Shown here: positions 8,848-43,625 of the stretch, piece after piece
Layout: each line of letters opens with the position of its first letter
Numbering within the stretch: position 1 is the first letter of the stretch
Source: Psychrobacter fulvigenes
GTDB taxonomy: Bacteria; Pseudomonadota; Gammaproteobacteria; Pseudomonadales; Moraxellaceae
Reading direction: 5' to 3'
Assembly: GCF_904846155.1 (NCBI RefSeq)
Contig: NZ_CAJGZP010000001.1
Coordinates: 992,001 to 1,056,000, forward strand
Length of the DNA: 64,000 bases
Notes under the pieces: generated by a model
Told to the model about the DNA's origin: nothing
Database searches by the model: none
Seen by the model: the letters and a program-made list of their open reading frames with translations, nothing else
Made by a program: the position numbers and the translations under genes

Positions 8848-9180
8848 TCAATCTTCAATGGCGCATATTTCAGAGCGCACAATAAAGCGTTTGCCTTCAG
8901 GTATTTCCAGTGAAAAGCTCGCACCGCGACCATCGACTACATCGATAGTTAAGTCAGTATGTTGCCAGAGTTTATACTGAGCTTTACCCATATAAAATGG
9001 ACAGCCAGCAAGTTCACCGACGAGTACGTCTTGACCGCCAACTTTGAACTCACCCAGCGGATAACACATCGGTGAGCTGCCATCGCAGCAGCCGCCAGAT
9101 TGATGGAACATCAGATCACCGTGTTTGGACTTTAATAACTCAATTAACGCAACGCAGGCTTCTGTCGCTTCAAGTTTCAT
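8848..9180 (-). CDS. DUF779 family protein
   Basis: 110 residues, matching DUF779: MKLEATEACVALIELLK, the cysteine-rich HQSGGCCDGSSPMCYP, then VGELAGCPFYMGKAQYKLWQ and the C-terminal GKRFIVRSEICAIED. The clustered cysteines suggest metal or redox chemistry, but no activity is established. DUF779 genes are known to sit beside aldehyde dehydrogenases, as here (same strand as ADH and ALDH), so an accessory role in aldehyde oxidation is inferred. Confidence 0.85.
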   Translation of the reverse strand: MKLEATEACVALIELLKSKHGDLMFHQSGGCCDGSSPMCYPLGEFKVGGQDVLVGELAGCPFYMGKAQYKLWQHTDLTIDVVDGRGASFSLEIPEGKRFIVRSEICAIED

Positions 9181-9355
9181 ATCGTGCTCCTTGTTTTTAA
9201 ACTTTTACCCAAACTAATTGGTAAAAAATATAAAAGGTCGTATCATCTTCACTCACATCATTCATAGCATGTGGCTGAAAACGATACGACCTAGCGTTAG
9301 TGATTAAGTGATGTTTTGTGACTAAACGTACCAATCACTAAGATGATTGCAATGT

Positions 9356-10384
9356 CTACATAGAGTAGTCAATCACGATACGTCCCTCAATCTTGCCATC
9401 ACGCATACGATCAAGAATATCATTGATATTCTCAAGCGGCTCAGCGGCAACGGTCGCTTTTACTTTACCTTCCGCCGCCATATCTAGCGACTCTTGTAGG
9501 TCCAGGCGTGTACCAACGATTGAGCCACGAATGGTAATACCATTTAGTACCGTATCAAAGATAGAGACAGGGAAGTCGCCTGTTGGCAGACCATTACAGA
9601 CTAAAGTACCACCGCGGCGTAGCATGGTTAGTGCTTGATCAAAGGCCTTAGAGGAGACGGCTGTCACTAGCACACCATGAGCACCGCCGATCTCTTCTTG
9701 CAGATACTCACCAGGATCGGTGTTTTTGGCATTGACGGTGACTTTTGCCCCCAGTTTTTTGGCAAAATCGAGCTTTTCATCGTCAATATCGACGGCAGCA
9801 ACGTTCAGTCCCATGGCAATGGCGTACTGTACCGCCATGTGACCAAGTCCACCGATACCTGAAATGACGACCCAATCACCTGGTTTGGTGTCTGTCATTT
9901 TCAGACCTTTATATACCGTCACACCCGCACATAGAACTGGTGCAATCTCAACAGAGTCAACGCTCTCAGGAATAATGCCAACATAGTCAGCATCTGCCAA
10001 TACGTATTCTGCAAAGCTACCATTCACTGAATAACCAGAGTTCTCTTGACTTAGGCACAGGGTTTCCCAGCCACCTAGACAGTGCGTACAGTGACCACAG
10101 GCAGAGTAGAGCCAAGGCACACCGACACGGTCGCCTTCTTTGACATGCTTAACACCTTCACCCACAGCAGTGATCAGGCCGACACCTTCATGACCAGGGA
10201 TAAACGGGGGGCTTGGTTTGACTGGCCAATCGCCTTCGACAGCATGCAGGTCGGTATGACAGACACCTGATGCCTGCATTTTTACTACAATTTGACCAGG
10301 ACCTGGGGTAGGGATATCAACTTCTTCAATCTGCAGAGGTTGGTTGAACTCGTGCAGAACCGCAGCTTTCATTTTATTACTCAT
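9356..10384 (-). CDS. adhP: Zinc-dependent alcohol dehydrogenase (AdhP type)
   Basis: 342 residues, NAD-dependent medium-chain dehydrogenase interconverting alcohols and aldehydes in the cytosol. The catalytic zinc site is visible in [15 protein letters not shown] and IPGHEGVG. The structural zinc cysteines are in [18 protein letters not shown], the Rossmann motif is [13 protein letters not shown], and VDIDDEKL is the NAD-preferring end of beta-2. Length and motifs fit AdhP. It precedes DUF779 and follows ALDH on the same strand, forming an alcohol to acid pathway. A strong ribosome site (AAGGAG, 10387-10400 region) precedes the ATG. Confidence 0.9.
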
Positions 10385-10521
10385 GGTATAACTCCTTATT
10401 ACTAGCAGTCACTAATGCTCGACTTAGTCTTTTAAACTGCCAATTATTTTACATGTAGATGCTTAGTAAGCATCGAGTTTGCACCTTACGCTTCCTTGTA
10501 AGGTGCTTTAGCAAATAGTGT

Positions 10522-12048
10522 TTAAAAGAACCCCATCGCTTTTGGACTATACGATAACAGCATGTTTTTGGTTTGCTGATAATGATCAAGCATCATTAGA
10601 TGGTTTTCGCGGCCGATACCCGATTGCTTGTAGCCGCCAAGTGCGGAATGCGAAGGATAGATGTGGTAGCAGTTGGTCCACACGCGACCTGCTTGGATGC
10701 CACGTCCGAAGCGATAGGCTTTGTGTACACTGCGTGTCCAGACTCCAGCACCAAGACCATATAAGGTATCATTGGCAATGCTCATGGCCTCTTCGTCGTC
10801 TTTAAATTTCGTGACGGCAAGTACTGGTCCAAAGATTTCCTCTTGGAACACGCGCATGTCGTTAGTGCCTTCAAAGATAGTGGGCTGCACATAGTAGCCA
10901 TCTGCAAGGTCGCCGTCATGCTTGGCTTGTTCTCCACCGACCAATACTTTGGCCCCTTCTTTTTTGCCAATATCCAGATAAGAGAGGATTTTTTCTAACT
11001 GGTCTGTGCTGGCTTGGGCGCCAATCATGGTATCAGTATCTAATGGGTTACCCATTTTGATGGCTTTGACGCGCTCGATACAGCGCTTCATAAACTCATC
11101 ATAAATGCTCTCGTGTACTAATGCGCGCGACGGACAAGTACAGACTTCACCTTGGTTAAGCGCAAACATCACTAGACCTTCGACCGCTTTGTCCAAGAAA
11201 TCATCGTCTTCGTCCATGACATCAGCAAAGAAGATATTTGGACTCTTACCACCCAGCTCTAGGGTCACTGGAATGATGTTTTCACTGGCGTACTGCATGA
11301 TTAGGCGACCAGTAGTCGTCTCACCAGTAAAGGCAACTTTATTGATACGTGGATTGGAGGCAAGCGGCTTACCAGCTTCAACTCCGAAACCGTTGACCAC
11401 GTTGAGGACACCTTTTGGTAAGATATCAGCAATCCCGATCGTCTCTAGCATAAATAGGATAGAGGCAGGCGTTTGCTCTGCAGGCTTGAGTACTATACAG
11501 TTACCAGCAGCAAGCGCAGGGGCTAGCTTCCATACTGCCATGAGGATCGGAAAGTTCCATGGGATAATTTGGCCGACGACACCAAGTGGCTCATGGAAGT
11601 GATAAGCAACCGTGTCATCATCAATTTGACTGATGCCGCCTTCTTGTGCACGAATGGCACTGGCAAAATAGCGAAAGTGATCGACAGCTAATGGAATGTC
11701 TGCTGCTAGGGTTTCACGTACAGGCTTGCCGTTTTCATACGTTTCGGCAATGGCGATGGCTTCTAAATTGGCTTCCATCTTATCTGCAATTTTGAGCAGT
11801 AGATTGGCACGTTCAGCGACACTGGTTTTGCCCCAAGCGTCTTTGGCAGCATGAGCAGCGTCTAAGGCTTTTTCAATATCGGCTTCTTTTGAACGGGCGA
11901 CTTGGCAGATGACTTTACCGTCAATGGGGCTGGTGTTGTCAAAGTATTCTCCATCGGCTGGTGCGACCCACTCACCATTGATAAAGTTGTCATATTTTTC
12001 GCGGAATTGGACGGGGCTGTTTTCTGTATTGGGATAGGCGTGTAGCAT
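10522..12048 (-). CDS. NAD-dependent aldehyde dehydrogenase (AldB/ExaC type)
   Basis: 508 residues; oxidises aldehydes, probably acetaldehyde, to carboxylic acids. Seen: [20 protein letters not shown], the cofactor region [12 protein letters not shown], the general-base Glu in [11 protein letters not shown], and the catalytic Cys in [14 protein letters not shown]. The C-terminal [15 protein letters not shown] and the ending [12 protein letters not shown] are typical of ExaC/AldB/AcoD enzymes. It is first in a minus-strand group with ADH and DUF779, and its promoter must lie in 12049-12370. AAGGAGTCGTTA precedes the start. Confidence 0.92.
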
Positions 12049-40366: not shown

Positions 40367-40400
40367 ACAAAAAACCCGCTAACGGGTAGCGGGTTTTTTT
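40367..40400 (-). terminator. Terminator downstream of the NdpA/membrane-protein unit
   Basis: AACCCGCTA / TAGCGGGTT with a 5-nt loop, flanked by A-run and T-run so it can act both ways. It lies nine bases after the stop of the membrane-protein gene. Confidence 0.88.
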
Positions 40401-40408
40401 AAAAGATT

Positions 40409-41680
40409 CTAGATAGGGTTTTGTACTTTAGGTTTTATTTTCCTATATATAGCAACGCCCAATATAGCAACCAAAATAAACAGCATCGCAGACCAAAACA
40501 CTGTCATAGCACTAGAAATGTTATAAAGACTATATACAACGGCTAAATATACAACAGCTATCATAACCCAGTATAAATGTGTTTGTTTTTCAATAAGATC
40601 ATAGATTTTACCTCTTTCAATAACCCACCGATCTTTTAGACTTTGTGGTAGTTTGCCTTCGCTTTCAAAGCCTTCCACCTCTGAGCTTAGGTTGTCAAGT
40701 ACAGCTTTCTGAGTAGATAGAGCAAAACTACAGATAATTGCGTACACCAATAATGCAACATAAACAATTAATTGATTATCGGAGTTGCTACCCTTTAGTA
40801 TTACTGGCGCTGCGGCTGCAATAGGTAGTGCTAGTATCTGAGAGAGAACCTTAGAGATACTATCATTTACCCTACTAATGAACCTTTCACTGTTCTCCTC
40901 TAGCTTCTTAACAAATTTTTCGTACTTGAAGTCTTCAAGGTAATTATCAAACTGTCCTTGTGCAGCTCTATATACACGGTCAATATTTTCAATAATTGCG
41001 TGTATCTCAAGAGGCTGCGAACCAGTTTGTATATCGGACAATACTGAAGCTAAAATTGACTTTTTCTCATTAGCGTGTGTACCAGCATCATCAATACTTA
41101 ACCAAATACAGAACTCTCCTATAACCTTTAGGTTATGTTCTAAATTCTTGGTAAGGTTTTCTAAGGCTACCTTAAAAGCATCTAAATTTTTGCTGACGTC
41201 GTAATGAAGTTCAAATGTACGCTTAGTTACAAAAATGATTTTTCTTTTAGAGTGATCAAGATACGATGACATGCTTTCAAGATGAATTAATAATCCCCTT
41301 ACTGCATTATAAGCGGCAATTATTTCAGGGGTATCAACATCTTGAGAGTAATACCCTATATCCTTAATGTAATAAGGCTTACTGTCTGCTTTATCATTAG
41401 GTAGGCTACGAACAAAGTCACCTTTCATGAACCGATCAACATCATCGTAAAGCCATCCTAAAGTCAATTCAGGTTGACGTATTTGTAATTTTACAGTTTC
41501 TCCAACCTTTAGTTCACCTTCTAATACTTCTACACGAGTTGCTACAGAGTTGTCACCTAACGCTAAATTGTTGATTAATGACAACGTTGCATCATTTTCG
41601 ATGCAACATTCAGCCTGAGCAGATTCTATGAAATCCACTTTGCGATATAGTGTCACTAAGTCTGAAAACGTTATAGTCAT
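40409..41680 (-). CDS. Four-helix membrane protein with large soluble N-terminal part, cargo gene
   Basis: 423 residues, not recognised. About 285 N-terminal residues are soluble and mainly helical (HSKRKIIFVTKRTFELHYDV, FKVALENLTKNLEHNLKVIG, KFVKKLEENSERFISRVNDS). Then come four membrane helices: ILALPIAAAAPVIL, LIVYVALLVYAIICSFAL, LYWVMIAVVYLAVVYSLY and VFWSAMLFILVAILGVAIY. The start lies two bases after the NdpA-like stop, so the pair is translationally coupled. Composition is markedly AT-rich compared with flanking phage genes. A sensor-plus-membrane-effector arrangement is inferred; holin-like or channel activity is untested. Confidence 0.75.
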   Translation of the reverse strand: MTITFSDLVTLYRKVDFIESAQAECCIENDATLSLINNLALGDNSVATRVEVLEGELKVGETVKLQIRQPELTLGWLYDDVDRFMKGDFVRSLPNDKADSKPYYIKDIGYYSQDVDTPEIIAAYNAVRGLLIHLESMSSYLDHSKRKIIFVTKRTFELHYDVSKNLDAFKVALENLTKNLEHNLKVIGEFCIWLSIDDAGTHANEKKSILASVLSDIQTGSQPLEIHAIIENIDRVYRAAQGQFDNYLEDFKYEKFVKKLEENSERFISRVNDSISKVLSQILALPIAAAAPVILKGSNSDNQLIVYVALLVYAIICSFALSTQKAVLDNLSSEVEGFESEGKLPQSLKDRWVIERGKIYDLIEKQTHLYWVMIAVVYLAVVYSLYNISSAMTVFWSAMLFILVAILGVAIYRKIKPKVQNPI

Positions 41681-41682
41681 AT

Positions 41683-42711
41683 TTACTCTGAACCACCTTT
41701 GTCATAAGCATCCAAAATGTCTTTTGGAGGGTGATGAAAAATAACTTTTCCACCTTCAACTGTAACCTCATCATTGCTGATCGCTTCATCATCAAATGAA
41801 AAAGCCCAATGTTTCTCTCTATGAAATTGGACTGCCAATCCTCTTAAAGAGCCCTTATGAGGCACAAATCCATCTGAAATCGGACAATCATTCTCTTCTC
41901 CATATTGTTCAAAAAAATCTACCAAATCTTGCGGTTCATCTGGCCAAACTCTGTTAGTGAAAGAACTCATAGAAAACTGGAGCGGATGAGGTTTATTATT
42001 GGCTAACTCTTTTAGATATCCATTAGCATTTGAGAGTAGGTGAGCACGTTCCTCTAGTTTAAGGTTTTTGCTAGTAGCAAAAGCCTTAATTTGAGTTACT
42101 AAATCTTTAGTTTCTTGGCTAGCCATTGGTACATTACTGCAACCCATAAATCTTTTGAAATAATTTGAAACCTCACCTTGTCCTTTCAAAAAGCTAATAT
42201 ACCGTCGACTTTTTTCATTTTTCGATCTCCAACTGCTAATATTAATACGACCAGCAAAACGTACATTTTCAAAATTTAAAACATCATTTTGAGTTAAAGT
42301 CCAATTTTTAGCTGTTAACCCTACTTTTTCTGTCAGAATGGCAACTAAGAAATACTCTTGTCCACCTTCTGAATAGTGAATAAAAGCAACCTTACCACCT
42401 TTTGCTCCTGCTTCGTGTTTACTTTCTGCCATGAGGTGATTCATAAGACGTTCAGTACAGGAGTGAAAGTCATCTAAAATATCTTCATCAAGATAGTCAT
42501 TAATAATAGTTGAAGTAGGGTAACTATCTGTATTTTCTTCGAAAACCCCGTAGCCTTTACCAGCTCTACCACGATAACGCTCTGTTAAATTGGTTAGTAA
42601 TTTATCCGCAGAGTCATCTACAGGTAGCAAGTCAGGATTGATAATAACTCTTACATTTTCTGTACTCTTGTGTTCCTTCACTAATATGTGGTACGTACTG
42701 TTATGAATCAT
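41683..42711 (-). CDS. NdpA/YejK family nucleoid-associated protein (NA37), cargo gene
   Basis: 342 residues, close to YejK in size and motif order. GGKVAFIHYSEGGQEYFLVA aligns with the YejK core GGFVLFCHY...EYLLVAVL. NFENVRFAGRINISSW follows, and SRRYISFLKGQGEVSNYFKR with FMGC matches the YejK YLTFLKG...FFMDFLG stretch. YejK binds the nucleoid; its role is unclear. Here it is phage-borne, AT-rich, first of two coupled genes, preceded by its own control region and isolated by terminators. It is therefore not a housekeeping gene. The start is at 42711 with AAAAGGTAAAAT ahead. Confidence 0.85.
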   Translation of the reverse strand: MIHNSTYHILVKEHKSTENVRVIINPDLLPVDDSADKLLTNLTERYRGRAGKGYGVFEENTDSYPTSTIINDYLDEDILDDFHSCTERLMNHLMAESKHEAGAKGGKVAFIHYSEGGQEYFLVAILTEKVGLTAKNWTLTQNDVLNFENVRFAGRINISSWRSKNEKSRRYISFLKGQGEVSNYFKRFMGCSNVPMASQETKDLVTQIKAFATSKNLKLEERAHLLSNANGYLKELANNKPHPLQFSMSSFTNRVWPDEPQDLVDFFEQYGEENDCPISDGFVPHKGSLRGLAVQFHREKHWAFSFDDEAISNDEVTVEGGKVIFHHPPKDILDAYDKGGSE

Positions 42712-42738
42712 ATTTTACCTTTTATAGCCGAAAATTAT

Positions 42739-42773
42739 TTGTATACAAGACAAATATACGACAATATATGTCG
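42739..42773. promoter_or_regulatory. Palindromic operator candidates of the NdpA unit
   Basis: TTGTATACAA (42739-42748) is a perfect 10-bp palindrome. CGACAATATATGTCG (42759-42773) has 5-bp perfect arms CGACA/TGTCG. They stand 20 bp apart centre to centre, about two helix turns, just upstream of the start codon at 42711, in an AT-rich stretch. This suggests repression of the cargo unit by a dimeric protein. Confidence 0.5.
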
Positions 42774-42863
42774 CATACACACTGTTACATTAGGTTATCT
42801 TTGCTTCATCATAACTGTACTCATCATAACTTTAAAGCATTTTATGAACTTAGTTTTATATAT

Positions 42864-42888
42864 AAAAAAGACCCGCCGCGGCGAGTCT
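42864..42888 (-). terminator. Terminator at the end of the early operon
   Basis: On the minus strand AGACTCGCCGCGGCGGGTCT folds on itself and is followed by TTTTTT. It stands between the DUF3164 gene and the NdpA unit, stopping early-operon transcripts before the cargo. Confidence 0.75.
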
Positions 42889-42959
42889 CTATATTTAATT
42901 ATGATTTACAGCTGTATTAGTTTATTGCCTCTTTTAGCCCAGCGCACGGGTATTACTCT

Positions 42960-43625
42960 TCACACATTACTAAAATCAAGCGAGATTTGATAATAAGCGC
43001 CTTCGCTATCACGCTCATAAAAGCGGATATACTGTTTAGTATCAGTCACTTGTATCGCATCACTGATAGCATCCATTGCTTTATCCCACTTACTATCGCT
43101 AATATCCAAGCCGCGCAAGGCGAGTACGCGACCAGTCGAGATGTTACCCTCCTTGTCAACTTGGAAGGCTTGATTAATCAGCGCTTTGATATTGTCATTG
43201 CTGTCTTGCGTCCAGTCCGTCAAACACTCATCAATCAACGACTTAGCGACTTGCAGACGCTCATCAAAAACGATGTTTTCAGAGACTGCCAGCTGTATCT
43301 TAAGCTTGCCGTCGTAACTCAGCAGCGTCGTATTGCCTTTTTTACCACCCATTTGTACGTCATACTCTTGCGCAGACAACGCGACAAAATCATTAAACGT
43401 GTCAAACAGCTGAGACTTAGCAGTACGCATCTGAGCACGTAGCTCGACAGCAATAGCGACCATGTCCTTGACAACTTCGTCACGCAGCTTATCGACTGGT
43501 TTTACTTTGTCGACAGGGATTAGATGGCCTTTAGCGTTGGTCATATAGCCGTCTGGTGTGACAGGGGCGCTTTCAGTGGTTGGGTTTGACATGGCTTTTA
43601 ATTCCTCTTCTGAGTAGTTCATCAT
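42960..43625 (-). CDS. DUF3164 family phage early protein
   Basis: 221 residues. MTNAKGHLIPVDKVKPVDKL, LRDEVVKDMVAIAVELRAQM and LSYDGKLKIQLAVSENIVFD are typical of DUF3164, widespread in the early operons of Mu-like phages. Function unknown. AAGGAAAGTA precedes the tandem ATG ATG at 43625. Confidence 0.85.
   Translation of the reverse strand: MMNYSEEELKAMSNPTTESAPVTPDGYMTNAKGHLIPVDKVKPVDKLRDEVVKDMVAIAVELRAQMRTAKSQLFDTFNDFVALSAQEYDVQMGGKKGNTTLLSYDGKLKIQLAVSENIVFDERLQVAKSLIDECLTDWTQDSNDNIKALINQAFQVDKEGNISTGRVLALRGLDISDSKWDKAMDAISDAIQVTDTKQYIRFYERDSEGAYYQISLDFSNV

Follow-up and report, generated by a model that had tools for sequence, protein, structure and literature searches.

Among ten defined-function domains newly validated in defence by the DefensePredictor study is the YejK nucleoid-associated domain (PMC13092281). 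The YejK-domain system is one of 42 validated units in total and was validated in E. coli (2026); the sections of the paper on this system give no mechanism. To judge by their names, the DS1 models of NCBIfam derive from this YejK-domain system, and DS-1 is listed as a rare system in Providencia (PMC12935923). Among the papers found on YejK together with phage defence, the DefensePredictor study alone concerns defence, as far as titles and the beginnings of abstracts indicate. Outside defence, an action of E. coli YejK on gyrase and topoisomerase IV has been reported (PMC9927451, PMC10561277), and NdpA2 is reported to control the transfer of a conjugative element (PMC9927451). A second point of reference is RexAB of phage lambda, described as a system whose DNA-binding protein detects intermediates of phage DNA, with the opening of a membrane channel (PMC12894663, PMC11077077); RexA is reported to act on the lambda switch as well (PMC11077077).

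The window analysed here, a stretch of 64,000 nucleotides from Psychrobacter fulvigenes, holds a Mu-like prophage in which two genes, A and B, occupy the slot between the DUF3164 gene and gemA:

42960..43625, minus strand, DUF3164 gene of the phage backbone, left neighbour of the pair (Pfam PF11363, E 9.3e-84)
41683..42711, minus strand, gene A, 342 aa, YejK/NA37 nucleoid-associated family protein
40409..41680, minus strand, gene B, 423 aa, soluble N-terminal part and C-terminal membrane helices
39807..40370, minus strand, gemA of the phage backbone, right neighbour of the pair (Pfam PF06252, E 9.6e-26)

Gene A precedes gene B, and the two open reading frames are separated by a gap of 2 bp. 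Their GC content (0.362 for A, 0.359 for B) lies well below that of five phage genes (0.455-0.531), and so does their GC content at third codon positions (GC3 of 0.25 and 0.29, compared with 0.50-0.55 in the same five genes). The first-pass annotation had proposed two coupled genes next to gemA, more AT-rich than the phage core, and the reading frames, the Pfam matches of the neighbours and the composition all bear this out.

Protein A matches Pfam PF04245 (NA37) over residues 8-317 (E 1.1e-56; 193.1 bits, above the gathering score of 24.6) and phrog_3767 (E 1.4e-65), and its family profile aligns end to end with the solved YejK structure 9be2. The Pfam match and the full-length alignment uphold its earlier assignment to YejK/NA37. 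Protein A thus belongs at full length to the same family as housekeeping YejK/NdpA and the lone NdpA proteins of phages. It differs from them in three respects: it falls below the cut-off of the YejK equivalog (NCBIfam PRK00378, 127.9 bits against 341), it is the sole NA37 protein found in its genome, and it is tied to B.

Protein B matched no Pfam family and gave weak matches alone against solved structures (best E 0.007); among phage protein families it matches phrog_5023 (E 4.5e-33). Four C-terminal membrane helices had been claimed for it. The window copy does have four hydropathy peaks, at residues 277-295 (weak), 304-322, 372-390 and 393-411, but just two of them are well conserved: among 23 B proteins the second and third segments exceed the threshold in 22 each, whereas 10 proteins have the weak first segment above it and 4 the last. 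The B protein of locus L046, outside this count, also seems to have the last segment. An AlphaFold2 model built from 12 sequences (mean pLDDT 74.6, pTM 0.50) predicts mixed strands and helices up to about residue 160 and helices thereafter, with long helices at 233-295, 300-340, 346-391 and 395-420 and a poorly predicted stretch at 281-290. At this pTM the model is modest, which counts against the reading favoured below.

The pair shares with DS-1 (NCBIfam NF053868, NF053869) the same two families, NA37 and DS1_2, and both models match. It differs in that both matches lie far below the equivalog cut-offs (DS1_1_antiphage for A: 75.8 bits, E 3.1e-21, cut-off 330; DS1_2_antiphage for B: 66.4 bits, E 2.4e-18, cut-off 315), in that the match of B is limited to residues 99-336, and in that this branch is known here from sequence alone. 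The general YejK model outscores DS1_1 on A (127.9 against 75.8 bits). It did so for all 10 A proteins in two further scans. In these scans all 10 B proteins were hit by DS1_2 and 9 of the 10 A proteins by DS1_1, always below the cut-off. A DS-1-like superfamily drawn by homology, as an NA37 gene immediately next to a same-strand homologue of DS1_2, takes in the window pair. Because both models match far below their cut-offs, and a YejK-domain system is reported as validated (PMC13092281), the pair is best classed, from its profile matches, as a divergent branch of the DS-1 kind. The remark that no system of this composition had been described is therefore outdated: the DS1_1 and DS1_2 models and the reported YejK-domain system (PMC13092281) are of this kind. 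PADLOC 2023 gave no confident match for A or B.

The likeness to RexAB and RexAB-type systems is one of layout, a prophage-borne protein of a DNA-binding family together with a membrane protein. RexA is reported to resemble RdgC (PMC11077077), whereas A is a YejK protein, and RexB has 144 aa, whereas B has 423 aa with a large soluble part. By sequence comparison alone, hhalign gave probabilities of 0.5% for A with RexA and 0.1% for B with RexB. Given a similar logic and no sequence relation, the pair may share the mode of action of RexAB although it does not belong to that group.

The A-B pair is a real, mobile and tightly paired cargo unit. With window B as the query, a match was found in 25 of 348 genomes of the bacterial family. 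In 24 of 25 loci examined (the window and L035-L058), A is the immediate upstream neighbour of B, in the same orientation. One of the 24 (L053) has A split in two frames; at the remaining locus (L035) B is broken and A is missing. Within the genus, NA37 occurs in 10 of 105 genomes, all of them among the 11 with B (hypergeometric P 3.8e-13, which assumes independent genomes, and they are not). Across the family it occurs in 32 of 348, with B adjoining in 26 (including G120 and G127, found by profile) and other partners in 6. In a draw from the phylum, 11 of 398 genomes had a match, the window's own included; the loci opened left out the weak match of G874, and among the nine further ones A adjoins B in 8 (one A is cut by a contig end and one B is shortened), the ninth being a B fragment alone. 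Spacing in 23 pairs varies between an overlap of 50 bp and a gap of 25 bp. The distances of A and B are strongly correlated (r 0.967 over 23 pairs, with 0 of 2000 permutations as high); this test covers 23 of the 24 pairs, with L053 left out for its split A, as it is from alignment A2, while alignment A1 leaves out L035 for its broken B. A tblastn search with window B found no phage record and 1 record in the plasmid collection; further matches required profile searches and a more closely related query. When a narrower alignment of B was used to scan whole genomes, 8 loci resulted, all in genera already seen.

The slots of the pair vary, comprising Mu-like prophages of Psychrobacter, Acinetobacter and E. 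coli and one lambdoid prophage. In L036 the pair sits in the same slot as in the window, with 46% protein identity for A and 42% for B; of 13 other matched genes, 11 are at 60-87% identity and two at 40% and 43%. In a Mu-like prophage of a second genus of the family, taken as Acinetobacter (L048), the pair lies between the terminase and portal genes. Among 5426 E. coli genomes, 35 have a match to the pair found in Klebsiella phage Kp4865-4; the match covers at least 80% of that pair in 14 of them and only 7% in 19. All three of the matches examined have A and B by profile. Two of these are transposable prophages (L128, L129) with the pair between a helix-turn-helix gene and the holin. The third, L127, is a lambdoid prophage with the pair at 8971-11173 between Q and the holin, on the strand opposite to its neighbours. 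The existing annotation of L127 gives the pair just as a nucleoid-associated protein and a hypothetical protein.

The slot between the DUF3164 gene and gemA also varies in content. DUF3164 was found at 10 places in 9 of 105 genomes of the genus; the pair is present at two of them (the window and L036), and the other 8 have no pair within the 13 kb taken. A related Mu-like prophage (L071, TnpA 74.5% identical) holds in the same slot an HU-like gene of 90 aa and an antisense gene of 653 aa (L071:7331-9292). The latter has a GC content of 0.36 and encodes a GHKL ATPase domain; it matches a restriction-enzyme model of PADLOC and, weakly, HSDR_N, and is a candidate defence gene. Around the pair itself, 114 neighbour genes from 21 loci include 4 with Methylase_S, a Type I specificity domain, and 3 with a phage integrase domain; these are raw counts with no background comparison, pooled over loci and taken from the best 25 of 144 and the best 25 of 87 families.

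This distribution bears on whether the pair serves the prophage itself, A regulating lysogeny or transposition and B modulating A, with exclusion of other phages secondary or absent. There are reported parallels, in that RexA acts on the lambda switch too (PMC11077077) and NdpA2 governs the transfer of a conjugative element (PMC9927451). Yet unrelated phages carry the same pair, which also lies next to restriction genes and takes up several slots, and 8 of the 10 DUF3164-bearing Mu-like loci of the genus lack it within the 13 kb taken. A regulator of this prophage is therefore quite improbable.

NA37 genes were found in 65 phage records. In the seven examined, B adjoins NA37 in 4, including Klebsiella and Sinorhizobium phages, and NA37 stands without B in 3, among them Pseudomonas phage H66, where a lone NA37 gene lies among genes for ssDNA binding and recombination. 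NA37 itself is therefore not specific to defence. The H66 arrangement would also suit a replication accessory of this phage lineage. Such a role is very hard to reconcile with the sporadic occurrence of the pair in the Mu-like prophages of the genus, its form of an AT-rich cassette with edges of its own and its strict pairing with a membrane protein (24 of 25 loci), and has little to recommend it. The first-pass annotation had named as evidence against its own reading that the genes are found neither together nor in variable positions, or that they form a fixed core feature with a replication role. The co-occurrence check shows instead that other genomes and prophages also carry A and B as a pair, at positions that vary.

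Comparison with the viral contig L022 delimits the transferred unit, and the regulatory signals around the pair can be placed relative to its edges:

40530..42930 (edges approximate), minus strand, cassette exchanged between related phages, from sliding DNA identity, running from the upstream region of A to inside the last ~40 codons of B
42867..42890, minus strand, terminator-like hairpin upstream of A, 10-pair stem and T tail, inside the cassette block common to L022
42754..42778, no strand assigned, inverted repeat in front of A from the hairpin list, putative operator
40374..40387, minus strand, terminator-like hairpin after B, 5-pair stem and T tail, in a flank 90% identical in the L022 backbone

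The cassette is 96.0% identical to L022 at the DNA level over 2413 bp, compared with 68-79% for the other matching pieces, and in L022 the left neighbour of the pair is a Mu Gam-like gene instead of the DUF3164 gene. Judged from these identities, the exchange between phages appears to be recent. One edge falls inside the B gene, since the last ~40 codons of window B (40409-40530), which encode the fourth hydrophobic segment, are unrelated to the end of L022 B. As L022 B stops at 392 aa and the DNA match ends ~40 codons before the stop codon of the window copy, the fourth helix is an add-on of that copy. The pair had been described as closed off by a terminator on each side. Both terminator-like hairpins are present, but the one at 40387-40374 belongs to the phage and not to the pair, because it lies outside the swapped cassette in the stretch that is 90% identical in the L022 backbone. 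Terminator-like sites in the scanned stretch show no clear excess, with 5 against 3.1 (sd 1.9) in shuffles. Of the palindromic operator candidates proposed in front of the pair, the inverted repeat at 42778-42754 exists and is also present in L022, but within the nearly identical block and so with no independent conservation; promoter-like matches in the scanned stretch equal those in shuffles (11 against 11.6).

Where B is absent, NA37 has other partners. In six genomes of the bacterial family without B (L104-L109), NA37 is paired with other genes. Two of these loci (L108:3888-5998, L109:3058-5129) have NA37 followed by a gene with a RelA/SpoT domain (Pfam E 3e-17 and 1e-14), possibly a second NA37-based conflict system. 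In three others (L104:3775-6818, L105:2871-4785, L107:1752-7799) an NA37-like gene is followed by a protein of ~310 aa, which in L104 and L107 is followed in turn by one of ~400 aa; a DrmD-like SNF2 helicase adjoins these genes in L107. In the last (L106:3874-6400) the partner is a 486-aa protein with two hydrophobic segments. This protein was tried as a distant B, at an hhalign probability of 1.8%, and is not claimed as one. The partner classes group together when 44 NA37 proteins are placed on a tree, with 2 label changes for three classes against a shuffled mean of 8.7 (0 of 200 as low); ten inner branches of the tree are open and several rows are long, and the clustering does not establish a single origin of the B-paired group. 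It can tentatively be suggested that NA37/YejK is a reusable immune sensor that guards the state of DNA or the nucleoid and is coupled to effectors that can be exchanged: a bundle of membrane helices (in the window pair and DS-1), nucleotide synthetases of the RelA/SpoT type, soluble partners encoded by two genes near helicases, or a different membrane protein. If so, the window pair would stand for the membrane type, with Mu-like phages as its carriers.

These partners also bear on which of the two proteins acts on the infected cell. In a defence pair with A as the effector, A would bind incoming DNA and block its replication or transcription, and B would anchor A to the membrane close to where DNA enters. 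Protein A belongs at full length to a family that binds DNA, an action of YejK on gyrase and topoisomerase IV has been reported (PMC9927451, PMC10561277), and the long predicted helices of B could serve as a tether. The pairing of NA37 with RelA/SpoT-domain proteins in loci without B points the other way: such enzymes are of a type able to act as effectors, so that A fits better as a sensor, and an effector role for A seems unlikely.

The favoured reading takes the pair for an anti-phage system of the DS-1 kind that belongs to a divergent branch and travels as cargo in Mu-like prophages. In it A would be the sensor and B the membrane effector, and the lysogen would resist other phages by aborting infection; on balance this is probably correct. 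A defence role as such is likely. It is suggested by the matches to anti-phage models, the pairing and co-inheritance, the varied slots, the cassette exchange, the GHKL gene in a related slot, the Type I restriction neighbours and the two-gene logic known from RexAB (PMC12894663, PMC11077077). Against the favoured reading stand scores far below the DS-1 cut-offs, the higher score of the YejK model, the lack of a confident PADLOC match, the missing sequence relation to RexA and RexB and the occurrence of NA37 without B in 3 of 7 phage records. The earlier proposal of a defence module thus holds for the coupled cargo unit, its recurrence in variable slots and its anti-phage model matches, whereas its mechanism of a sensor and a membrane effector goes beyond these and is proposed by analogy.

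In the proposed mechanism, A, as a YejK-type DNA-binding protein, would watch the state of DNA, either its topology or its replication intermediates, and contact B, an inner-membrane protein whose soluble part would face the cytoplasm. Once replication or reorganisation of DNA by an incoming phage sets in, A would change state and activate B. The helices of B would then permeabilise the membrane and infection would be aborted, as proposed for RexA and RexB. The chances that A senses the state of DNA are about even, and DNA topology is a plausible cue given the reported action of YejK on gyrase and topoisomerase IV (PMC9927451, PMC10561277). If the pair serves defence, B is fairly probably the membrane effector. 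The activity of this branch, the cue sensed by A and the membrane harm by B are all inferred.

A and B thus make up a module with close pairing and wide transfer, exchanged between phages in cassette form, and the NA37 family to which A belongs has other effector-like partners. The pair makes testable the idea that a DNA state is sensed by a relative of nucleoid proteins and signalled to a membrane protein, and the same question arises for RexAB.
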